DNA from: Aphelidium insulamus | Lineage: Eukaryota > Aphelidiomycota > Aphelidea > Aphelidiaceae | DNA length: 64,000 nucleotides | Direction: 5' to 3' | Assembly (NCBI GenBank): GCA_036784855.1 | Contig: JAZDSV010000001.1 | Span: 372,001-436,000, forward strand | Shown: piece after piece, positions 1,967 to 61,200 of the stretch | Numbering within the stretch: the stretch's first letter is position 1 | Layout of the letters: every line of letters begins with the position of its first letter | The notes under the pieces: model-generated | What the model saw: the letters and a program-made list of their open reading frames with translations, nothing else | Databases searched by the model: none | Told to the model about the DNA's origin: nothing | Translations under genes and position numbers: made by a program

Positions 1967-2320
1967 ATGCGAATACTGTTTGCAGTGTCCGTGTCCGTGG
2001 CGCTGACCAATGCCGGCCCGTGTCCAAACCCCACGGACCCTGGATGCTGCTTGCAGACGGCCATTGTCAACGGGGAGCCGATACCACTCGGCTTCGACGC
2101 CACCACAAACCAGTGCGTGTGGCCCAATGTCGCGCTGACACCGACAGTAACCATATCAAGTATCAGCGGCACTACTAGCGGCACCATCAGCAGTACCATC
2201 AACACTGCATCAACACCGCAGCCCACGACATCGCAGATATCCAACAGTTCTCCTGCAAGCAACAAGCAGACTATCGTGGGATGGTCGACACTGTTGGCCC
2301 TGTTGACGTGTCTCGCATAA
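1967..2320 (+). CDS. small secreted, probably GPI-anchored Cys-rich protein (copy 1)
   Basis: A 117-residue protein with an N-terminal signal peptide (hydrophobic VSVSVAL, likely cut near TNA-GP), a Cys-rich head GPCPNPTDPGCCLQ then TNQCVWP, a long Ser/Thr stalk and a C-terminal hydrophobic tail (WSTLLALLTCLA), the usual layout of a GPI-anchored surface protein. The same head occurs in the next gene at 2775, so the two are tandem paralogues of a family I do not recognise. Four cysteines in a C-CC-C pattern could form two disulphides. The start was chosen at 1967 because the signal peptide follows immediately; the frame is open further upstream. Intronless. Confidence 0.75.
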   Translation: MRILFAVSVSVALTNAGPCPNPTDPGCCLQTAIVNGEPIPLGFDATTNQCVWPNVALTPTVTISSISGTTSGTISSTINTASTPQPTTSQISNSSPASNKQTIVGWSTLLALLTCLA

Positions 2321-2774
2321 CACATGGAACGCTCACTCATTGAAAATATATTTCGGTGCCGAACGCTCTAAGTTGAATGCTGTTTGTGTGCTGCTGTGGT
2401 TGTGTGGGATGTGTGTGGGTGGATGTCTATGTGGAATGCTATGTAATTATTCAATTCAGCTTCGACAGAGACCTCCAGCTACACAATGCATAAAATAGAA
2501 CATGGAATACAAGAATACAATCCAGATTATATTATCTGCACCTTACAGTTGAGTGTCAGTGACTTGTTGAGTGTCAGTGACTTGTGCAACGGCAACAGCA
2601 AATCAGTGTTGCCGCCACCTTTGCACAATGCAATTTCACCGACGCGTCTGATTGGCTGAGCCTTAAATTGATCAGCGCGCATAGAAAAGCGCGTCAAAGC
2701 GCTGCACTTCAACTATTTACTTCAACTGTTTCTTGCACTCTTCCAACTTCTATTCTCTTAATAGCAATAATAAT
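2321..2774. other. intergenic, 3' and 5' flanks of the secreted paralogues
   Basis: No gene is supported here. The first half is GT-rich (3' flank of the upstream gene). A perfect 18-bp tandem duplication lies at 2548-2583. Just before the next start there is an A/T-rich leader with repeated AATAAT. Confidence 0.5.
2548..2583. repeat. 18-bp perfect tandem duplication
   Basis: The unit gttgagtgtcagtgactt occurs twice without a mismatch, about 190 bp upstream of the second secreted-protein start. Confidence 0.9.
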
Positions 2775-3122
2775 ATGAAGCTCTTCTTGATTGCCGCAGC
2801 CCTGGTTGCCAGCGTGTCGGCCGGTCCGTGCTCCAATCCCGCCGACACTGGTTGCTGCCTGCAGTTCACACAGGTGAACGGTGTGGCCACCCCGCTCGGC
2901 TATGATCCCGCCACCAACCAGTGCGTGTGGCCCGCTGGTTCCGCGGGAAGTGCCAACCCGTCCACGGGTGGAAACGGTACCACCACCGGCGGTAATGGCA
3001 CCACAACTGGCACTCGCCCGGGAAACAATGGCAAGGCTGACGGTTCGGCCTCGGGTGCCGCGTCCAACACTGCCACCGTGGCCAGCGTTGTGGCCGCCGT
3101 GTCCTACCTGCTCCTTGCCTAA
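2775..3122 (+). CDS. small secreted, probably GPI-anchored Cys-rich protein (copy 2)
   Basis: A 115-residue paralogue of the protein at 1967. Signal peptide MKLFLIAAALVASVSA is followed by GPCSNPADTGCCLQ, a VNG...PLGYD segment and TNQCVWP; the four cysteines align with those of copy 1. The stalk is Gly/Thr/Asn rich and contains a short internal repeat (GGNGTTTG twice, also possible N-glycosylation sites), and the C-terminus is hydrophobic (VASVVAAVSYLLLA), consistent with GPI attachment. Intronless. The real ATG at 2775 follows an A-rich leader; the upstream in-frame extension has no conserved counterpart. Function unknown; a cell-wall or zoospore-surface role is inference. Confidence 0.8.
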   Translation: MKLFLIAAALVASVSAGPCSNPADTGCCLQFTQVNGVATPLGYDPATNQCVWPAGSAGSANPSTGGNGTTTGGNGTTTGTRPGNNGKADGSASGAASNTATVASVVAAVSYLLLA

Positions 3123-3246
3123 ATAATATGGCATCAACAGTCACCCTGAATATAATATGCACACATTACATAACATTAATTGTGAACTGTGAGTGTGAAC
3201 TGTAAGTGTGAGCATACATATACATACTTACTCCCCGCCAGTAATA

Positions 3247-4504
3247 ATGGAGGCCGAGTGCTCGCGGTGCAGCCGTCGCGGCAAGCGGCTGCAAAAGTAC
3301 AAGCGGCGTCTGCGCAAGGCCAAGCGTCGCGCTGCCAAAGCCAGTGACCGCGCCGCCAAGCTGGCCATCACGGTGGAGAAGCTGCGGTCGGGTCTGACGT
3401 GCTCCATCTGCTGCGACTACTTTGCCCTGCCGCACACGCTGCAGTGCGGCCACTCCTTCTGCTACAAGTGCCTCATTGAGTGGTGCCGCACGTGTTTTGA
3501 CCCCGCGGCGGCGGCAAGTAATGCATTATTGGCCGCTGAAGATGGCGACGATGATGCCGATGCCGTGGTCAAGGTGCGGTCGCCCACGTGTCCCATGTGT
3601 CGGCAGCGCATTAAGCGTCGGCCGACGCCCGCGCACACACTGGAGCAGCAAGTTCAGGATTTGGTGGCGGCGCAGGACAAGCCGCTGGATGCCGAGCAAA
3701 TACGTGTGTTTCAGCGGCGGCAGAGTGCGGCGCGCGCGGCCCACGATCGTGACACTGTCCACGGAACCGTTGACCCCTGGCAGCTACTATTTCCCGGCGA
3801 TGTCTTGAATGACCAGTTGGATGGTGTCAAGTAGGATCATTGCTGATTATGTAGTTAGTCCCATGTTTATATAACATCTCTACAGGCGCTGCCAGTACTG
3901 TCTATGGGAGATTGTGGGCAAGCGCTGCATAAACTGCGGTGTCCAGTTCGATGATATAAACACCGACGACGATGAGGCGCAAGAAGGGTCCCACAATACG
4001 GATTGTGAAGCTGGCTCACAGCACTCGTCCGTGTATCTGTCCACCTCCAACGATGACAATGATGATGATGATGCGGACGATGATGAGTCGCTCGATGAGG
4101 AAGACTCCAAATTTATTGATGATTGCATCGATGGCGACGATGGAAGTGATAATGACGGCACAGATGCAGAGTCTGCGGAACATAATATCACCTCACGGCC
4201 ACGCACAAAGAAACGGCGGCGTCTTCGCGCGAGGAAAAGAAGCAAATTTGTTGATGTGGATGCCGACTCTACTGATGGCGCAGATTCTGACACTGCTTCT
4301 CGTGATGATGCGGACCACGCCGCACCGCCACGCAAACTTGTCCGAATTGTCGAGTCGTCTGAAGATGAGCAGCAACAAGATTCCATTATCGCAGGACCTG
4401 TCATGAACACAATTGTTGCCAAGGACCCGTCTACTCCAGAAAGCTCCGAAGCCTCGAGTGACTCTAGGGGGTCACCACAGCCAAACATTTTATTAACACT
4501 GTGA
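3247..4504 (+). CDS. PSH1: PSH1-like RING E3 ubiquitin ligase
   Basis: Two exons, 3247-3830 and 3886-4504, separated by a 55-nt GT-AG intron; joining gives AAG across the boundary. The N-terminus is basic and helical (coiled-coil-like), then a C3HC4 RING: CSICCDYFALPHTLQCGHSF, CYKC, and CPMC, with an acidic insert between the zinc pairs. After the intron comes a second zinc-binding motif (RCQYCLWEIVGKRCINCG) and a very acidic Asp/Ser tail with a basic patch. This order, RING then CxxC-x-W-E...CxxC then acidic tail, is that of yeast Psh1, the ligase for centromeric histone Cse4/CENP-A. The RING and second zinc motif are seen; the CENP-A substrate is inference from the family. Confidence 0.75.
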
Positions 4505-7720: not shown

Positions 7721-10138
7721 ATGTCGTCGTCGCGCACGCCACTGAGCGCCAGACGCAATCCATCAGAGTCCGTGAACACGGTCTCGATTGCATTCGAAGC
7801 GGAGCCGGATGTCTCGCTGTCCCGGCCGCCCATTCCGGCCGCAGTCACCGCGCCAGACTTTCCCGAAATGTCACGCTCCGTCGACGATCTGGTACAAATG
7901 AACAAGAACTCTCGGATGAGCAAGTTGCGCAAGAAAATGGCGCCATCTACATCGGAGAACGTGCCACCTTCGCCACAGCAGCCCGCAGTGTCCGCGCCAT
8001 CATCACCCGCCCAGTCACACACGGCAAGTCACCACGGACACGCGCGCGCCGTCACCGCACAGTCGGATCCCGTGCCACGGCACCTCAGCTCGGCAGACAA
8101 TTCTGGCCCCGTCGGGGACGGTCAGCCGGGGTTCACAAACAGACGCGACACCATAACGAGGATGCGCGGGTTCACGCACGACATGCCGCTCAAGATGATG
8201 AAGCGTATGAAGGCCACACACATTCCGATAGTGACGAGATACATTACCTACTGTCGTGCGCACTGGTACTTATATCATTTATGTGTACTCCTATACTGAC
8301 CGCTAGGCCGGGGCATCCGCAGTACAAACGCATTTTCTACTCGCCCTACTTTTTCCTGTACATCATCTCAATGTCCCTGATACAAGCGTTTCTGTCTGGA
8401 ATAGCCGTCTATGACGTTGTCGTTTTTGACACCTGGCAGCTTGGCTCCGTGGTCAGCTTGACTTTCTTTGCCATGTACATTGTGGAAGTGTTGATACGGG
8501 TACGATATTTGTATGTGAACTTAAATTCTCGATACTTACGGCACATGTAGATGTACATTAAAGGGTATGCATGGCATATATTGGTGGTAAAATATGCTTA
8601 ATTAAGTAGTTTCGAGTTCTTTTTGCAAATATACAACATTGCCGAGGTTTGCCTCACGCTGGCGGTGTGTACTCTTGCTGGCAAATTAGCTCACACCCAC
8701 TAACCTAAATAGGCCTTCATTATGGACTTTCAGCTAAAAGGCACATCGTTTGTCGCAAATGTTCTTTCGCTGCGCATAATTTGGTGCATACAGTAAGTAC
8801 CTATTGCGGTTTTGAGTACGGAACCTGACACACTTATATCAGCAAAGTTCCCGGGATGACCTTCATCATTGAAGGCATAAAGGTGAAGAATGGTTGTTGC
8901 ACGTTTAATGCGATCTAACTTTTACAGCTTGCGGCCCCAAGAATATCCATCATTCTGTTCCCTCTGATGATATTGATTTACGTCTTTGCCGGTAACTATG
9001 TGTACTATCCGTTCAATCCGTCTGAATAATTAGTGATTGTAACCAGCGTGCTTGGACCAGCATCATATGACTATCCAAGTAAGTCGGCTAATATCTTGCT
9101 ACTAGTGGCAGAACTAATACTGCCTAGGCCAAGATTATTGGAGGTCGACATATAATCATACATTCGAGTGAGCGTAACAGTTTGTCTATTCGTAACTGAT
9201 GCATATTAAAAGGAATGGAACACAGATTATTGTCAAGGGAGCTAACTTGGACTATGATTACTATGGGTACGTTATTCAATTTGTAGTTGCTTTTCTCGGC
9301 TAATATTGCTCAGAGATATCGCGGTATGACATGATGCGATAGATGCACTTTCTAATCTCTACGTACAGAAAAGCATGTTTACATTATTTCAAGGTACATC
9401 ACACATTATTTTTTCCGTGGCCAGACCTAACTTTAAGTCATGACTGGTGATGCTTGGGCAGACAACAGTACGCTCCTCAACGAGCTTATGAACACGCTCA
9501 CCAGTTTCTAGTTGCACGGCCGACAATGAGCAACCGGCCGTGGAGTTTCATCTTGTTCATTGCCTTCTACTCGCTCTTTGCCTTTGTCCTCCTCAACATC
9601 TTTACCGGTATCATGGTCAAGTACGTGCACTTTAATTCCATGTTATCATTCGTGAAACATTAACATTGTTGTGCAGTGCCATTCAGGTAAGAATGTTGCA
9701 TTCACGAGATGCCACAGGTATAATACTTTGTAGTCTTACGAGGAGGAGCGACGAAAGCTACTGAAGAGCGCCAAACGAGCAGAGAAGCTGCGCAAGAACG
9801 AAAAGCTGGCAGCTGATAATAACACTGTAGATACGGGGGACGAACGGTCGGAAGTGTCGGACGCAGACATCACGGACCGCAACGAAGAGTCATGGAGTAG
9901 GCGTGGGTCGAGTTTCGACCTTGTGAAATCGTCATCGAAAACACTGGGATCCGTGCAGAAATCGGCCCAGTTGTCGCCGGAAGAGTATGGCGGCGGCAAA
10001 GGCGGCGACGCAAATGCCAGTGTTGCAATTGCCCCCATACTGCATGAAGTACACCAACTGCGCGACGAACTGATACGTGGCCAGAGCAAGCTGATGAACA
10101 AGCTAGCGTTGCTAGAGACCAAGCTAAATGCCCCTTGA
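7721..10138 (+). CDS. single-domain CatSper-like voltage-gated cation channel A
   Basis: Reconstructed across about a dozen exons. A long Ser/Pro-rich cytoplasmic N-terminus is followed by S1 (SPYFFLYIISMSLIQAFL), S2 (VVSLTFFAMYIVEVLIR), S3, a weak S4 (SLRIIWCIHK, few positive charges), S5, and the pore loop KSMFTLFQVMTGDAW, which fits the TxDxW filter of CatSper channels. Then IARPTMSNRP and S6 (FAFVLLNIFTGIMV), and a basic/acidic coiled-coil C-terminus from SYEEERRK on. Firm introns: 8266-8306, 8500-8550, 9468-9511, 9687-9733. Exon 9677-9686 is only 10 nt long, and the exon 3-4 boundary near 8587-8616 is unclear. Presumed flagellar Ca2+ entry channel; that role is inferred from the family. 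Confidence 0.7.
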
Positions 10139-10233: not shown

Positions 10234-10439
10234 GCGTCCACATGCTAGCATAGAACGATGGCCTATATATATACATACACCTATGTATTGCTGCCAATTG
10301 TATTAGAACTGTGGACAGCAAGCGTCCACATGCTAGCATAGAACGATGGCCTATATATATACATACACCTATGTATTGCTGCCAATTGTATTAGAACTGT
10401 GGACACCAAGCGTCCACATGCTAGCATAGAACGATGGCC
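10234..10439. repeat. 88-bp tandem repeat with terminal inverted ends
   Basis: Nearly identical units start at 10234, 10322 and 10410; the third is cut short after about 30 bp. Each unit opens with gcgtccaca and closes with tgtggac, so its ends are inverted repeats, and it contains TGCTAGCA and a TA tract. It lies between the stop of channel A and the start of the PA-RING gene. Confidence 0.9.
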
Positions 10440-34157: not shown

Positions 34158-36745
34158 TTATATTTTCTGCGAAGAAACCAAAAGGTCACTCAGATCTGAC
34201 TGGCCGTCAATACGGAGATTTCTTTCATTGGCCAAGTGGAGCAGGCAGATAAAGTAGTAAGACACAGTGATTTCATCTGCCTTGAGCGGGGTGTACATGG
34301 TCTTCACGTCGTCAATCAAGTGCGTGAAAGTGCTTGGTTGTTGGTGTTCCGAAGCGTTCAGAGACTGTGCATAGTCAATTTGTATTGTTCAGTCGTGCAT
34401 ATGATATACACAAAATATAATTGCCTCGCCGTCCAGCTTGGACCAAATGTCGTCCTTCAACTTTTTCACATCAACCTTTTTTGCCTTTTTCGAATAGTTT
34501 ATCGTTTCTGGCCGGCCATCATTACGACCGGTGGTCGGGGCTACAAACTGAGTCGCCCCGAGGTAATCACCTTGCGTTGCCTGAGTAAATCCATTGAACG
34601 GAGCATTGTCATCGTAATTGTCGTCGTCTTGGTCGTAGTCACCCATGGCATCATTAAACTGTTGCGACACATCGATGTGATCCAAATTATTATCGCCACC
34701 ATTTGTCTCTACTTTGACCACCTGTGCAGCTAATTAACCTTGTACAGAGAAAGGTCAATTGAATTCGCACTTGTAGTAGCGGCTTGCTGAAGAGCTTGTT
34801 CATGTCCGACCAAGAATAATGAATGTCACGCGGCAGCAAATGCAGGCTTTTCCCGCCGGTGGACTTAACCCGAGCTGCACTTGCTTTACCGCTTTTCGCC
34901 CGAACGCTCAAGATTTCATCATCAGTAGGCGTCTTAATATTAAAGTCGATCAAATTGACGGTCTTTTCCTTTCTTTGCCGTGTTACATTTGTCGCCTTTG
35001 GTTGCTCTATAGATTATTACTCAAAAACACATATGCCCCTCAACGAACTTTGAACAATATTCCTCATCAGCTGCCGACGCTTCCAATGCTCCGGGCCTGC
35101 CCACGATTTAAGAGACGCAGCGTCAAAGTACGAAAACTGATTAGCCGGAGCGGTGAATGGTCGGAGCAGAACACAGTGGCGTGTTTTATGGGATGCTCCA
35201 GACTCGGATGTAACGCTGGAATTGTGTTGCGTTGAAGTGTCGTCGTCGTTCATTGCCGCATCAACGCCTTCGGCAATAAGATCCTCAAATATGTATCCGC
35301 CGTGATCGTCATCATTGTCGATTTCATCGTGATCATCTCCACCCATGTCGTTATCATTGCCGCCATCAGACGCTACATCTTCTTTAATGGGCGTATCATC
35401 ACTACCATCAGACAGCCGAGATGGCTGCTCAACAAATGAGCCATCAATCCCGTCTGATGCCCATGGTAGATCACCAGAGCTTAATCTATAGCCGGCAAGT
35501 GTTGGACATATCTTCATGCGAGCTAACCCGGAAGGATCTCTGGGCAGAAAAGCTAATTAATTGTATCAACACGAGCAAATATGTAGTCAATGAACACGAG
35601 CACGCATACGTGTCAGAGGTCCCAGATCGAGCATTTCGCCAAGCAGCGCCTCTTCCTTGTCGGTCATCATAGCGTGGGCAACAGCGTTAATATCACTGGC
35701 ATCAAACACGATTTTGCCGTTGTCAAACACACTGAGGTGATTAAGCAGCAGACCGCTGGCGCCACCCTCGTCAAATTCTGCGCATGTCTTGCGGAAGAGC
35801 GGATCCACCGCAAACTCCGAGTCCAACTTCTTCATTGACAGGTTGGCCGCCGACTTTTCCAGAGTTTTTTCGCGCAGAGTACTTGCTGGCTATGTCGATT
35901 AATGCAATGTGTTAAAGATTGTATTATTTGAATACATACATACCTTTTTGCGTACACGCCGACCATCTTCAGCAACCTCGTCATCTCCGTCAGCATCATC
36001 GCCAGGCGAAGCCGATACCTTGCTCTGCTTGGCATTGCCGTCTACGGTTTGTGCAATATAACAGCAGTCAAGTATGAGCAATATATACAACACTTGCCGG
36101 AGGTGGACAGACCGCTGAGCAGCAGATTAGTTTCCGAGACTACGGCGTCAACCCTCGTGGTGTACACCTTGACACAGCCGTCCAGCGTGCAGGAAGCCCT
36201 CTGAAAGTTAATCGTATTGCCACCATTTTCGCCCGCCGTGCCCAGTTCGTGAAAGTAGTCGATAAGCTGCACATTCCAGCTGTTGTTGGTGTTGATTTTC
36301 TGCATTGCATGAAAGTGAGCTGAGCTAGTGTGGACACAGAGACAGGAATCTCTCTGGCAGGCACAGTGCATGTACAGAGAGACATCCAACCCACATTGTC
36401 AGTGGCAATCTTCATCCACTGCTCGTAGTTGCGCGCCAGATCTGCCTGTGACAGCGGCGCACCGTGCTGACCGTACGGCACAGCTGGCACAGCATCCGTG
36501 GGCGGAGCGTTGAGGGCAGTGCTGTTATCGCCGCCGTGGCCACCAGCAGCAAGCAGCGCCAGACTCTGACGGTGACGTTTCATGCAGGCGGACGACTCGC
36601 GGCGGGCAGCTCTCTCCGCAGCATCATTGTTTAACGCGGCATCGGCAGAGGTGGGAGCGGCTGAGTGGTGAGGGGACGCAGACACCGCACCCAGTGAAGG
36701 CCGAGCCGTTGGCAGCAGAACAGAGCGGCGCCGATCCGAGACCAT
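34158..36745 (-). CDS. BRN1: condensin subunit 2 (kleisin CAP-H/Brn1)
   Basis: Kleisin that bridges the SMC2 and SMC4 heads. Seven or so exons. Landmarks: RRRSVLLPTARPSLG, YEQWMKIATDN then NSWNVQLIDYFHEL, NFQRASCTLDGCVKVYTTRV, SETNLLLSGL, FDEGGASGLLLNHLSVF, SYFDAASLKSWAGPEHWK, FNIKTPTDDEI, TINYSKKAKKVDVKKLK, THLIDDVKTMYTPLKADEIT, SYYFICLLHLANERNL. These cover the N-terminal SMC-binding helices, the acidic middle and the C-terminal winged helix. The ATG at 36745 is chosen just before MVSDRRRSVLL; the frame upstream is open but hydrophobic and not conserved. Divergent from CatSper-like B (114 bp between starts). Confidence 0.9.
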
Positions 36746-36859: not shown

Positions 36860-38954
36860 ATGCCCGTAAATGCTAACAGGACAAAGCATGGCGTGGACGT
36901 GGAGCTCACTGCCGGCGCGCTGCACTTGGTTTGCGCTGATGGTGTCTCTGTGTGACATACCTACGCTGCTAACCACGCACCGCCCGTGCAGCCACCCGTG
37001 CTAGAGACAGATTTCGGCAAATGGACCGCGGTACCCACCACGAGGTTGTTTGGCACGGCGGCGGATGGAGCAGATGCAAATGCCGACGACGACATAGATG
37101 CTGATGACACTGTCTCCTCCATCTACACGGCCACCGTTGACACCGCAGTGCTGGATGCCGACGATTCCGGCCAAAAGTACGCACATTAATAATGCGCATT
37201 GAAGTACTTATACTGACGGCCCTGCAGGCTGGCACAGGCACCGCTGCGGGAGTACATTGTCCACAACAAGATGCGGCAGGTAAGATCTTCCATATGTGTC
37301 AACATGGAACGCTTTACCATTTTGCCTCTGCAGCTGGAGGCAGACTTTAACCGCAAGATGGTCAACTTTGTGGACGTGGTTGATATGGACGACGAAGCAT
37401 TTCGCGACCACGTATCGGAAGACCTGGCAGGCAGGCTGTGCGAAAGTGATGCCTTCCAAACCATTATCACCATCTTGATTATTGTGCGTCAGTCACGGAG
37501 ATCTGCTTGCTTTTTAACCTGGAACACTGCAGCTGAACAGCATTATGATTGCTGTGGAGACTGACCGGAACATGGTACGAACATAAATCCATGTGACCCA
37601 CGACAACTAATATGTGCCAGATGTTGCGCTACTCGAACGTTTTTCATGGCTTGGATTCCGTGTTCCTAGCTGCCTTTTCGTTGGAAATTTGCCTGAAATT
37701 CTATGTCAACTTCACTGGCTTCTGGCACTCTGGCTGGAATGTGTTTGATTTTTCGCTGATTGCGTCGGCGTTGTTTGCCCCGGCCCTTACTTTCATGAGC
37801 AGCGGGAGAATGCTGCGCATACTTCGGGTCTTTAGAGCGTTCAAAGCACTGCGTGGTGTTCCTGCCCTGGAAGGACTTCGATCCATTGTCAAGACTATTA
37901 TCAGCTCCATACCGGATATGATCAACATTGGCATTTTGCTGCTTCTATTGATGTTCATCTATGCCGTGGTTGGAGTGACACTGTTCAAGAGCGTTTCGCC
38001 GGAAGATTTTGGAGACTTGTCAATGGGCAAGCATACCTTGCACTTGACGTGACTAAACTTCGCCTCACGTAGCAATGTTTTCCCTCTTCGTTATGCTCAC
38101 GCAGGACGGCTGGGAGAAAATTTTCAACCGACTGGAGGTGAGTCACTTAAATAACTTCAGCAGCTATCTAATCATGGATTAAAGGCCCGTGGGCAATGGC
38201 TTGCTGGAGTTATATATTGCGCCACGTTCATTCTTCTCGGTGTGATGGTTTTTGTGAACTTGATTGTGGGAGTTGTGGTTACCAGTCTGGTACGGCTACA
38301 ATCCAGGCAGTCAGTCGCCGCTTATCAGCAATGCAGGAAGAATCATACGATGAGCTGCAGAAGAACAAGACTGCCAAGTTCCGCTCGCTCACCACGAACC
38401 CGGCCGACAAGCCGCCACAACGTAGGTCTACATAAACAACGTTGGTGTCAATTCACGCAGCAGCCCTGCGGCCGGTCACTTTGCTCAATGACGAAGTGAT
38501 GCCGTTTCTGGAACACCAGGTGCCTCTTGAAATTCCGGTCAGTGATTACTGGTGCGACCAATGGCTATTTACCAACTAGAATCTGTCCAAAATATCGGAG
38601 CAAAAAGTACAAGACTATCTGCTCGTAGTCCGCCTGCTAGCCGAAAACATGAAAGAACATGCCCAGCTGAAAGAGTCATTGGACAAGGTGACTACAGATA
38701 GCATAGATGCTTATTATTGTGCTTTCATATATATTTGCAGATTGTCAAGGAAGTTCAGTCAGTGAACGACAAGGGAGCTCAAATTGAAGTGGAAGATGAC
38801 AGCGACAAGGACGATGGTGACGGCACCGAAACATCCAGCGAGGTATGTGTGTATGTGCAAGGATGAGGCACCGCTTGACCTGTCGCAGTACTCTGCCGCC
38901 CTGAACGGCGACCCGCTGTCGCGCATGTTGAATGCAAAAAAGGGCCGCAATTGA
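36860..38954 (+). CDS. single-domain CatSper-like voltage-gated cation channel B
   Basis: About 12 exons. N-terminus MPVNANRTKHGVD, an acidic linker, then S1 (TIITILIILNSIMIAVE), S2 (DSVFLAAFSLEICLKFY), S3 (GWNVFDFSLIASAL), a strong S4 (RMLRILRVFRAFKALRG, regularly spaced Arg), S5 (IGILLLLLMFIYAVVGVTLF), pore loop AMFSLFVMLTQDGW (TxDxW), S6 (LGVMVFVNLIVGVVV) and a C-terminal coiled coil (EESYDELQKNK; QDYLLVVRLLAENMKEHA; QSVNDKGAQIEVED). The CatSper-type filter and single domain argue against Cav/Cch1. Intron 38027-38072 is GC-AG. The S6-to-tail join near 38290-38330 has several solutions. It ends 40 bp before the TM9 start. Confidence 0.75.
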
Positions 38955-38994: not shown

Positions 38995-41248
38995 ATGGTC
39001 ACTTGTCGCCGCCTTCCGCGGTTGCTGCCCGGCCTCCTCTTCTGTCTGTGCATTGCGGTACAGCAGTGTACTTCGTTCTCGCTGCTGCACCTGTCGGGCC
39101 ATCGCTTTCGCCGTGGCGACACGGTATGTGCCGCTTTGCAGTGGCTCTCGCAGATAATGCCACTCACACTGCTGCCAGATTCCCCTGTGGTTCAACAAGA
39201 TCTACTCCAGCAGTACGCAGGTTCCGTACGCCTACGCCGACTTGCCGTTCACATGCGGTGTGGCTCCTGATGACGACGAGGCGCCACTAAACTTTGGCGA
39301 GCTGTTTCGTGGCGACCGCATCATCAAGTCTGCACACGGCAAGTCTGTGCTCTGTATTGCCAGCTACCACATGGTAGACTTTGGCGGCCCCTGCTGACAA
39401 CGTACACTACGCAGATATCAAGGCTCTGCAGGAGCAAAAATGCGCAGAACTGTGCACCGCCCGGCACATTACGCCCACCGTACGGCAACAGATACGCACC
39501 TACATACAGCAAGACTATCGCGTAGAGTGGATCGTGGATGATTTGCCATCGGGGACGCCAGTAGAAGGAGACCAAATGCGAGACGAGGAGGACATGCAAG
39601 ATTTCAGCCATCAGCAGTACTTAGTGGGGTTCTCCCTCGGCATATACGACAAGATTAGCGATACCACATTCATATTCACACACCACCACATGATATTCAT
39701 GTACGAGCGAGTGGGCGCCGACGAGATACTGATCACCGGCTTTGAGATGTATCCCGAGAGTATGGCGCAGAATGGGACAGCGTGCGTCGACTTGAAAGCA
39801 ATCAAAGACGACCCGATGGTCATGGACGAGCAGATGGACAGTATTCGGTACACCTACACTGTGGAGTGGGTAGAGGACACAAAGGTGCGCTGGGGCCAGC
39901 GCTGGGAACGCTACACGGAAAAGTCGAATTCGAGCGTACATTGGTACAGCATTGCCAATTCGCTGATGCTGCTCGTCTTCCTGACGGTCCTCGTGGCCAT
40001 TATCATGCTGCGCACTCTGAACCACGACATATCCACTTACAACAATCCTGACATGCTGGTATATTGATGGCCATTAAATATTAAAAAATTAAATATCTGC
40101 GTGACACTCACACATTTACATAGGAAGAGCAGGACGAGGTGCTCGGCTGGAAGTTGGTGCACGGCGATGTGTTTCGACCACCTAGACGGTTGATGTTGCT
40201 CTCTGTGCTGGTCGGCTCGGGAGTTCAGGTGTTCAGCACATTGCTGGGCATCATGTTCTTTGCCCTAATAGGCGTGCTGAACCCATCGTATCGCGGTGGT
40301 TTAATGCAGTACGGCTTGGTCCTGTTCATATTTTCAAGGTGGGCATGAAGTTGACTTCACATGCGCCATTTACTCACAATACATTAGCATGTTTGCCGGT
40401 TATCACAGCGCCAGGATATACAAGGCATTCTCTGGCATATCATGGCGCACAAATGCCACGTGGGTTCGTAGGCTTGGTCTAGTTCATGTATTACCGAAAC
40501 TCATCTCTATAGACTGCTACCGTGGTCCCACTGTTTCTCTTTGTGGTATTGAGCGTGATCAACACCTACAATTGGCAGTTGGGTTCCTCAAATGCACTGC
40601 CTGCAGGCACCTTTGTGGCGCTCATATCACTGTGGCTGTTTGTGTCGGTGCCTTTGGTGCTTCTTGGATCATATTTTGGCTTCAAAAAGCAGCCAATAGA
40701 ACATCCGGTCCGCGTTAATCAGATACCGAGGCAGATACCCGCGCAAAGCTCGTACCTGGCACCTGTGCGAAGGTAGGCTTGCAATCATTCAAGTCAGCTC
40801 TCCTGACGGTGATACTAGCATGGTACTGGCCGGGATAATACCGTTCGCAGTGATATCGATGGAACTGTTCTTTGTGATGCAGTCCATGTGGGGCGATCAG
40901 TATTACTACATGTTTGGCTTCATGGCCTTTGTCTACCTCATTATGCTGGTCACTTGCGTGGAGATAACGATTGTGATGATATACTTTCAACTGTGCAGCG
41001 AGGACTATCGATGGCACTGGCGCAGTTTCTGGTTGTCCAGCAGCTCCACATGGTATATCCTGACGTTTGCACTGGTTTACTACTGGGGCCCATTCTCTGC
41101 GGAGAAGGAGCAGTTTCTTAGCGGCACTGTGTTTTTTGGCATGCTAGTGGCACCGCTGGCAGTACACTTTCTCTGCTCGGGCATGGTTGGCTTTGTCGCG
41201 TCCTATGTGTTCCTGAAGCACATTTACGGCGCTGTCAAAATCGACTGA
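38995..41248 (+). CDS. TM9SF/EMP70 nonaspanin
   Basis: A large Golgi/endosome membrane protein with a lumenal N-terminal domain and nine membrane helices. Exon 1 has a signal peptide (LLPGLLFCLCIAVQQC) and GHRFRRGDT; exon 2 IYSSSTQVPYAYADLPF and LNFGELFRGDRII, the family motifs GDxVPLxxNK and LGExLxGDR. The next exon ends the lumenal part (RVEWIVDDLP, FTHHHMIFMYE) and enters TM1. The TM region has GVLNPSYRGGLM, TATVVPLFLF, and ends GFVASYVFLKHIYGAVKID, the usual K-x-D type C-terminus for COPI/COPII signals. Six to eight introns of 40-80 nt. Convergent with Gna1 (68 bp between stops). Confidence 0.9.
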
Positions 41249-58270: not shown

Positions 58271-61200
58271 TTATGACTGCTTGGAGGTCCACCGTTCCAG
58301 GAGACGGCCAAGTGATCGCTCACTGGATGTTGATGTGACAGAGGTGACGCCGTTCTCGCTCTTTCGCGGCGACGGTTCGCACATCTGGCTGTACACATAG
58401 ATACGCTTCTCCGGCAGTACAATCAACCGTTTAGCGTACTCTGCCGCCGTGGGATTATCGCGGAATGCCGGATAGGGTATTTGTTGAAAGTGTCTCAAAC
58501 GCTCCACAATGTCGAATATTGCCCAGTTCTTGGAATAGTTTAGCGAGCCACTAGGCTGCAATACCTTTGAGTTGCCGTCGTTCGCAAATGTCAAGTCTTT
58601 CACGTACAGTCCCAGGAATGGTATGAACGGCTTGGAGTGCTGGTGGGCAAATTTGCTCTCGTAGTCGCGGTATAACTGGTAGTTCATATTGGAGTCCATC
58701 AGGCGCTCCATATCGTGCAGCTGGTTGACAAGCCGTGAGCTACACGAATCCCACGTGATCTTGAGGCGCTGTACTGACGCCGTATTCAACCCCGATATTA
58801 TAGCCATCACGCCGTTAAAGTTGTTCAGTTCCTTCAGCTCCTTAAGCAGCCGGATCATGTTCTCCAGCACGGCCACGCGGCGTTTTAGCACTGGCGTTGT
58901 GCAGATCTCGGTGCCCACCCAGAAGCTGAGCTGATTGAAGCGAGAGATCCAAGCTTCCATGGCGGCCGACTTGAAGGTCGGATTCCATATCTTGTCCACC
59001 AGGTCAACGGCGGTGATGTGGCCAAACAGTTCACTGTCGAGCTTTGTCAGTTGTTCAGCAATAACGGCTGGTCCATGAGGATTGAATGCGGACGAGTGTT
59101 CGGCGGTTGTTAGCGTCGATGGAACATCTGGTGTGATCTCGGCAATGTGTTCCACATATTTTGTGCGCTCCGCTACAATCTCCTCCTTCAAGCTAGCTGC
59201 AATGGTGGAGGTTACCGGTGACTCTAGCAGGATGGACACAAATTTCTCCAGTGACGCCAGCAGTTTTGGATCCCGGGCAAAATCTTGCCACGCATTTGTC
59301 ACCCATATGAGAGCAAGATTTGCTATTCGAACAAAGATGTCGTTCAGTGCCTCGGTTTGCTTTTCCGCCGTATAGCGCTTGTACTGCTCTACAATACGCA
59401 TCATAAATTCACTTGGTTTCAATACGCTCCGATATGTCAACACCAAGCATCGGGCACATTCCCGCTGTTCGTGGCCGGAGCACATTGACAGCACGTAGGG
59501 GATTACATCTTCAATACTTGCACTCGTTAGCCGTGGCCCACTACAAGAGACCGAAATAGCTACAGTCCCCTCCTTCATCAGCAATAGGTCATCATTTTGG
59601 CGAATGAATCCCAATTCCAGCTTGTCGGCTATGGCCTTTTCACGGTCGATTTTATGCGAGGATCGTTCCTTGTTCTTGTCAGTGCTGCGGTTGGGAATGG
59701 CCGACAGAATGCTGTCCACTGATAATCCGGTCGGTGTCTTTTGCCCCGAGATTCGTTTCAGCGACGGAAATGAGAATGTCGCCGTCTGAGATTGCTCTGA
59801 GGCGCTGTTTGACGACGATGCAGCGAGCGACGATTTGCTCGACTGTCCAGATCGCGCCACCGAGTTCAGTGCGTCAACGGACTGGCTTTGTGCTCCTCCG
59901 GCGTACAGCGACGGTTTGCCAAGTTTGTTGCGCAGTGCAGGGGCAGATACGCCGGCTATCATGATTAATGTCAGCTTGGAGACAAATTATCTGACTGACT
60001 GACCGGAAGCATTATCTGATGAGATTTTGACATCGGCGATCCGTGGCAGCTGTGAATTGGTAAGATCTGTACAGTGCATACTCTTTCAATACCTTGTCAG
60101 AGTCGTGGCCCGCAGCATTGCTGTAAACAATTTCGGGAACAGGTGTGAAGAACCCATTCTTGTCATCGCGGCTGCGACGCACTGCCAGGCGAGATGGCAC
60201 AGACGGCCGATGACCAATGGATGGCAAGAACTTTCCGCCGCCCATGTGCTCCGTCGAGTCACTTGTTGCCATTTCACTCTCGGTCTGCAGATCGTCAAAA
60301 CTGGTGAAAGCCGACGCCGACGATGCAGCAGCATTGAACGCCCCAAACTTGGACGCAGATCCGCGGCCAACAGTGGAGGACATGCTGTGCGACAAGCTGC
60401 TAGTGCCTGTATGATAAAGGTTTTCGGATGAGGCGACGATAGCCGACACTGCATCATTGCTTGCGGTGGTGTGAAGGTCCCCGAGTGACGGCGATCTGGC
60501 CCGGTCTCCATGCACGGAGCGATTTAGCAGCACGGCTGTTTTGACTGCCGACGCCATCGGATGCATGGCAGCAATGAGACGTTTTATGGAGGCGCTGTCG
60601 GTCTCCGTGTGTGCGCGTACATCCTTGACCGCGTCAATGAATTCCACCATGGCGCTGGCCTGAAGCAGGTTGGCAAAGTCCTGGTTGCCGGTCAGGCGCA
60701 TTACAAAGGCGCAGAGATCCGTGAGTCGGTCCAGCAGTGTGGTGCGCTCCAGTTCTCCCGACTTCAAGTACGCGGTCAGTGATGTACACGCTCTCACAAA
60801 TGCCGCCACGTCTTGAGTGAACTGTGACCGGGTCTTGGGGCGCGGCAGAGAGTCCTCCTGCAGATCGTTCTATCACAACATCGTTAGTGTGAGTGCTTCG
60901 TGCGCGTACTTGACCTGCCGATGTGCTGGTGGTGGAGTACCGCTGCTCATCTTCCGCCGCAATGAGTGCCGTGTAGTACTTGACAGCAGTGGCGACATTT
61001 AACACGAGCTGGTACGTTTTGCCGGCGATATCAACGATGCTCTCTGCCGACACTGTTACTCGGAGGACACACGTGTTAGCAACACTGACCGCCAGACGCC
61101 AGACGCTCGGTGAGTAGATGCAATTCGACCGCGACTGTATCGCGGACATTCTCTGTCAACAGATCTCCGTCATCGAGTTCTGCCTTGAAGTCCGCCACAA

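Follow-up and report, generated by a model that had tools for sequence, protein, structure and literature searches.

The CatSper4 locus

The stretch of Aphelidium insulamus DNA analyzed here (referred to as the window) is 64,000 nucleotides long and comes from an assembly that totals 17.95 Mb across 169 contigs. An intact ion channel gene, channel B, lies on its forward strand at 36860 to 38954, with an ATG start codon at the first of these positions and a TGA stop codon ending at the last. The model consists of 13 exons separated by 12 introns of 39 to 60 nt, and the joined frame is free of stops and encodes 504 amino acids (Table 1). Eleven introns are GT-AG, and the one that follows exon 6 is GC-AG. 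A full six-helix repeat had been proposed at this locus by the initial annotation, with coordinates that proved right to the base; the translated protein contains one Pfam Ion_trans domain (145 bits), the layout of a single-repeat, six-transmembrane channel.

The intact voltage sensor and pore described in the same annotation were also borne out. The S4 helix, GRMLRILRVFRAFKALRG, carries six Arg or Lys residues in register at every third position, the pore reads TQDGW (a TxDxW motif with its Asp present), and the Asn usual in S6 is kept. Beyond the membrane part, alignment to relatives revealed a conserved block before S1, a conserved tail, and a C-terminal block, GDPLSRML. This block and HGVDVELT are short stretches near the two ends of the protein that channel B has in common with its relatives. 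Conservation of the tail was seen both in this alignment and in a match to a solved chain.

Table 1. Positions in the window of channel B, its neighbors, and channel A
Feature	Position	Strand	Remarks
Channel A	about 7721..10138	+	heavily split gene with many tiny exons; poor spliced model
Tandem repeat	10234..10439		3' of channel A; 88-base unit, 2.3 copies, 99% matches
Condensin subunit 2 (Cnd2)	35017..36398	-	divergently oriented neighbor of channel B; not flagellar
Exon 1	36860..36949	+	start codon; HGVDVELT block, resembles chytrid CatSper4
Exon 2	36992..37176	+	acidic N-terminal region
Exon 3	37228..37279	+	
Exon 4	37334..37483	+	conserved pre-S1 block VNFVDVVDMDDE; start of S1
Exon 5	37533..37574	+	end of S1
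Exon 6	37621..38026	+	S2 to S5; followed by the GC-AG intron, 38027..38072
S4	37807..37854	+	six basic residues, every third position; position counted by hand
Exon 7	38073..38137	+	pore helix and filter
Selectivity filter TQDGW	38099..38113	+	Asp codon GAC at 38105..38107; position counted by hand
Exon 8	38185..38289	+	S6; conserved Asn codon AAC at 38257..38259 (codon counted by hand)
Exon 9	38337..38421	+	post-S6
Exon 10	38461..38519	+	
Exon 11	38580..38687	+	conserved tail common to channel B and chytrid CatSper4, NLSKISEQKVQDYLLVVRLLAENMKEH
Exon 12	38741..38842	+	end of tail, acidic stretch
Exon 13	38889..38954	+	stop codon; C-terminal GDPLSRML block (GDALSRWL or similar in chytrid CatSper4)
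EMP70	39378..41248	+	downstream neighbor of channel B; not flagellar

Gene models for channel B and for the three further CatSper genes described below were joined by eye and with a home-made spliced aligner. Because the profile used by the aligner included the channel B protein itself, its agreement on the other exons of channel B is not independent, and independent support for the model comes from the match to relatives close to each terminus. A last intron of 19 nt was rejected in favor of one of 46 nt (38843 to 38888), on the evidence of spliced alignment against relatives and a size like that of the other introns. Database, solved-chain, Pfam, and relative-alignment comparisons were carried out with a 513-residue version of the protein, nine residues longer owing to an addition close to the C terminus.

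Identity of channel B

A database search with channel B, in which the 7996 candidates sharing the most words were scored, returned 23 proteins. The seven best relatives (E values from 6e-92 to 8e-66) were six chytrid proteins and one EukProt protein labeled Rmarinus. The best chytrid match accounts for the value of 6e-92, and the chytrid alignments cover 80 to 98% of the query in five cases and 72% in the sixth; by sequence comparison, chance likeness to these proteins is excluded. NCBI names three of the six as CatSper4, from Phlyctochytrium (P0001), Podochytrium (P0003), and Dinochytrium (P0006). The other three, from Rhizoclosmatium (P0004), Polychytrium (P0005), and Zopfochytrium (P0007), carry no such name and belong to the same clade.

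Resemblance between channel B and the chytrid proteins is not limited to the membrane core. Five of the six are 495 to 519 amino acids long (P0006 has 352), all share the tail and a C-terminal block of the GDxLSRxL type, and the five long ones have a GVDV-type block near the N terminus. Six basic residues are present in S4 in four of the six, and identity in the alignment is 38 to 45%. Where channel B has TQDGW and an S6 Asn, however, all six chytrid proteins have TQIGW and an S6 Lys. The protein m.11310 (P0002) of Rmarinus, which we take to be the genus Rhodelphis, resembles channel B in TQDGW, the S6 Asn, and the tail (39% identity over 80%) but has a longer C terminus.

Comparison with solved structures led to the same subunit. 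The best single-repeat match to channel B was a CatSper4 chain, PDB 7eeb chain D, with 149 bits over residues 117 to 459; chain D of 9ubw, also CatSper4, scored 119 bits. The 7eeb match extends past S6 into the tail, and this chain was the only one among the best 60 of 153 solved chains whose best stretch went beyond residue 380 of channel B; the likeness is a distant one, known by its score and matched stretch. None of the CatSper1, CatSper2, or CatSper3 chains was among those best 60 of 153. When scores were totaled, four-repeat chains of the Nav and Cav kinds ranked above CatSper4, because their repeats add up, and four-repeat chains likewise topped the totals in searches with the CatSper3 (C88) and CatSper1 (C156) proteins of this genome. 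Identity was consequently judged by the best single-repeat chain and by phylogeny, not by summed score.

The tree was built from 47 rows and 293 columns. Of 122 retrieved proteins, 36 were chosen by hand for it, two of which contributed two repeat rows apiece; the remaining rows were one CatSper2 fragment from a solved structure, the four CatSper models, and four further pieces of the A. insulamus genome. CatSper2 was represented by two rows and CatSper3 by three. Channel B fell inside a nine-row CatSper4 clade with support of 100/99. Separate clades were recovered for CatSper1 (100/99), CatSper2 (100/99), and CatSper3 (100/100), and each of them, like the CatSper4 clade, contained one A. insulamus gene. 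Support for a clade of all CatSper proteins, at 89/94, was not decisive. Channel B had been described as CatSper-like from its sequence features; chytrid relatives, the 7eeb match, and the 100/99 clade agree with this and make the assignment more specific, to CatSper4.

Partner subunits in the genome

A search for the remaining subunits and auxiliary genes, suggested by the initial annotation, recovered candidates for both on other contigs. Ion_trans gave at least 16 matches at nine loci, four of which yielded CatSper-type proteins. As core fragments compared with solved CatSper chains, CatSper1 (contig C156) scored 128 bits, CatSper2 (C139) scored 102.8 bits versus 64.6 for a CatSper3 chain, and CatSper3 (C88) scored 98.7 bits versus 47.9 for a CatSper4 chain. 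Full models have 428, 520, and 398 amino acids for CatSper1, CatSper2, and CatSper3, respectively, and pairwise identity among the four A. insulamus CatSper proteins is 26 to 35%. CatSper1, 2, 3, and 4 were each found as one gene among the at least 16 matches, with no second copy of any seen among the Ion_trans loci, where counts are lower bounds. Other Ion_trans loci included a multi-repeat channel (C90) and potassium-channel-like sequences recognized from motifs read by eye: TVGYG on C97, TTTGYG on C87, and the post-S6 sequence on C93.

Domain models for the C-terminal regions of three auxiliary kinds were all matched above cut-off. CATSPERB_C scored 121.5 bits on C129, CATSPERD-E_C scored 48 bits on C35, and CATSPERG_C scored 46.3 and 35.4 bits on C97; the first two matches were repeated on translated frames. 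The models for the gamma beta-propeller, the delta beta-propeller, and the gamma N-terminal region had no match in the genome. Since none of the auxiliary-subunit models matched in any of 14 control genomes, these searches come with no positive control.

Two further observations bear on the kind of organism that carries these genes. One gene family matched Radial_spoke with 134.5 bits, which fits a flagellated organism. The A. insulamus CatSper1 clustered (98/96) with two unnamed proteins and with those of Cladochytrium and Sorochytrium, an affinity that suggests a flagellated fungus or a close relation of one. A scan for the RFX X-box motif came up empty at the CatSper1, CatSper2, and CatSper3 loci and at those of beta, gamma, and delta/epsilon; two sites were present in the window, at 59222 and 45100, neither of them near channel B, and one in L013, a result that carries no evidential weight.

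Taken at the level of sequence, channel B is very probably CatSper4, a pore subunit of a CatSper complex whose partners this genome encodes. The subunit kinds found are those of the CatSper complex of early-branching eukaryotes, for which the sections consulted of a 2017 paper give an early eukaryotic origin of CatSper1 to CatSper4, beta, gamma, and epsilon, citing Cai and coworkers (2014), with Allomyces among the genomes searched (PMC5362262). Set beside that complex, the A. insulamus CatSper1 differs in its filter, which is TFENW. Whole CatSper sets have been kept in several unrelated single-cell groups, according to the consulted part of a 2023 review (PMC10120453). CatSper subunits in flagellated fungi are likewise already published, as the portion consulted of an atlas of fungal flagellar proteins from 2026 assigns them to orthogroups specific to flagellated fungi (PMC13358043), and A. 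insulamus adds another case.

Channel A

The same window contains a second channel gene, channel A (about 8350 to 9620 as first paired with channel B), and the two had been put forward together as distinct subunits of one heteromeric channel. Channel A has an MTGDAW filter and a weak S4, which may partly be a fault of the model because the spliced model is poor. The best solved matches to its core were bacterial-Nav-type ion transport proteins with one repeat (78.8 bits), and no CatSper chain was among the best 60 of 82 solved chains. In the tree, channel A sat on a long branch among the bacterial Nav rows; a CatSper placement, assessed with this poor gene model, was not rejected (p-AU 0.395). 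Channel A thus looks bacterial-Nav-like, and its placement is unsure.

The pairing of channels A and B as two subunits is therefore not supported, although the broader proposal of a heteromeric channel gains from the CatSper1, CatSper2, and CatSper3 genes and the three auxiliary kinds. With channel A unsupported as a CatSper protein, the argument for a heteromer rests on genes on other contigs, and from these a CatSper heteromer in this lineage appears likely.

Proposed function and alternatives

The CatSper complex is mainly familiar from animal sperm, where it acts as the calcium gate. In A. insulamus, CatSper4 (channel B) would be one of four different pore subunits assembled in the flagellar membrane as a 1:1:1:1 tetramer, above whose pore the ectodomains of the auxiliary subunits would sit. 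The charges of S4 would sense depolarization, and opening would follow depolarization and probably alkaline pH. A filter ring of Glu, Asp, Asp, and Asp would then let calcium into the flagellum and change its beat. Calcium entry of this kind in a swimming cell is a probable role for the complex, as far as the genes themselves can indicate.

A true CatSper4 could also have a nonflagellar role or belong to a reduced complex, serving for instance as a route of calcium entry during a growing stage. According to the consulted portion of the fungal atlas, not every flagellated fungus has kept the complex (PMC13358043), which leaves room for such a role, but in A. insulamus the pore set and auxiliary subunits have been kept together with a radial-spoke gene, and we regard either alternative as unlikely. 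Less likely still is that channel B forms a homotetramer, as a one-repeat channel of the bacterial Nav or EukCat type that merely resembles CatSper. Channels of that type share the single-repeat layout, and channel B is matched by bacterial one-repeat chains with up to 119 bits. However, the bacterial Nav rows of the tree fall outside the CatSper4 clade that contains channel B, among the best 60 of 153 solved chains only the CatSper4 chain of 7eeb reaches into its tail beyond residue 380 with its best stretch, and the genome encodes three more CatSper types along with auxiliary subunits.

The possibility that channel B is a detached or misassembled repeat of a four-repeat Cch1/Cav channel can be dismissed as highly improbable at the sequence level: its matches to Cav and Nav repeats add up to high scores, but it is a single repeat that has a start and a stop of its own and whose relatives are of equal length, the multi-repeat channel of this genome was located on contig C90, and holding channel B with eight Cav-type rows (three of them pieces of this multi-repeat channel, in a tree made without two-pore channels, yeast Cch1, or animal Cav) costs 41.6 log-likelihood units and is rejected with a p-AU of 0.002. 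Clustering with Cch1/Cav repeats had been raised from the outset as the outcome that would speak against a CatSper identity.

Two possible pore types in flagellated fungi

For channel B as a CatSper4 subunit, the part worth following is the filter change in its chytrid relatives. Of 28 aligned CatSper rows, 21 have an acidic filter residue; the other 7 are all six chytrid CatSper4 proteins, with Ile (TQIGW), and the CatSper1 of Sorochytrium (P0029), with Asn, where the filter reads TLNNW. At the S6 position, 22 of the 28 rows retain Asn, and those six chytrid CatSper4 proteins (P0001, P0003, P0004, P0005, P0006, and P0007) have Lys instead. Three CatSper4 rows, those of channel B, P0002, and P0008, keep both the Asp and the Asn. 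The chytrid sample consists of six sequences that came from a capped search and rest on public gene models, at least two of which (P0006 and P0007) look imperfect, with an insertion before the pore and a gap in S4. These six form one clade with support of 100/97; a sister position of channel B to that clade received support of 65/33, which is not decisive.

In A. insulamus, by comparison, all four pore subunits have an acidic filter residue: Glu in CatSper1 and Asp in CatSper2, CatSper3, and CatSper4. The Glu lies in the TFENW filter of CatSper1 (locus L011, G000:C156:18000-24000, 2115-3875), which replaces Asp with Glu and is also found in an unnamed database protein, P0030. In the part consulted of a 2008 survey, the filter Asp is described as absolutely conserved among the animal CatSpers studied (PMC2572835). 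No mention of the chytrid CatSper4 filter change was found in the sources searched, which were consulted in part and exclude most subscription papers.

A separate observation concerns CatSper3, for which a search listed 48 matches and found animal CatSper3, with chytrid-named proteins accounting for none of the 48. CatSper3 may be missing from chytrids or present in them as a diverged copy.

These comparisons tentatively suggest that flagellated fungi have two types of CatSper pore, one with an all-acidic ring and the S6 Asn, as in the A. insulamus lineage, and one with TQIGW and the S6 Lys, arising in the sampled chytrids by one shared change; we consider this plausible at somewhat short of even chances. 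If true, chytrid CatSper4 would stay in the complex while taking no part in calcium selection, and the pore may be less calcium selective. A genome of about 18 Mb with four pore and three auxiliary kinds, apparently outside animals, would offer a compact setting in which to test the ancestral role of CatSper in swimming cells. The paired change of filter and S6 in chytrids would in turn be a natural comparison for learning the number of acidic residues required in the filter of a heteromeric CatSper.
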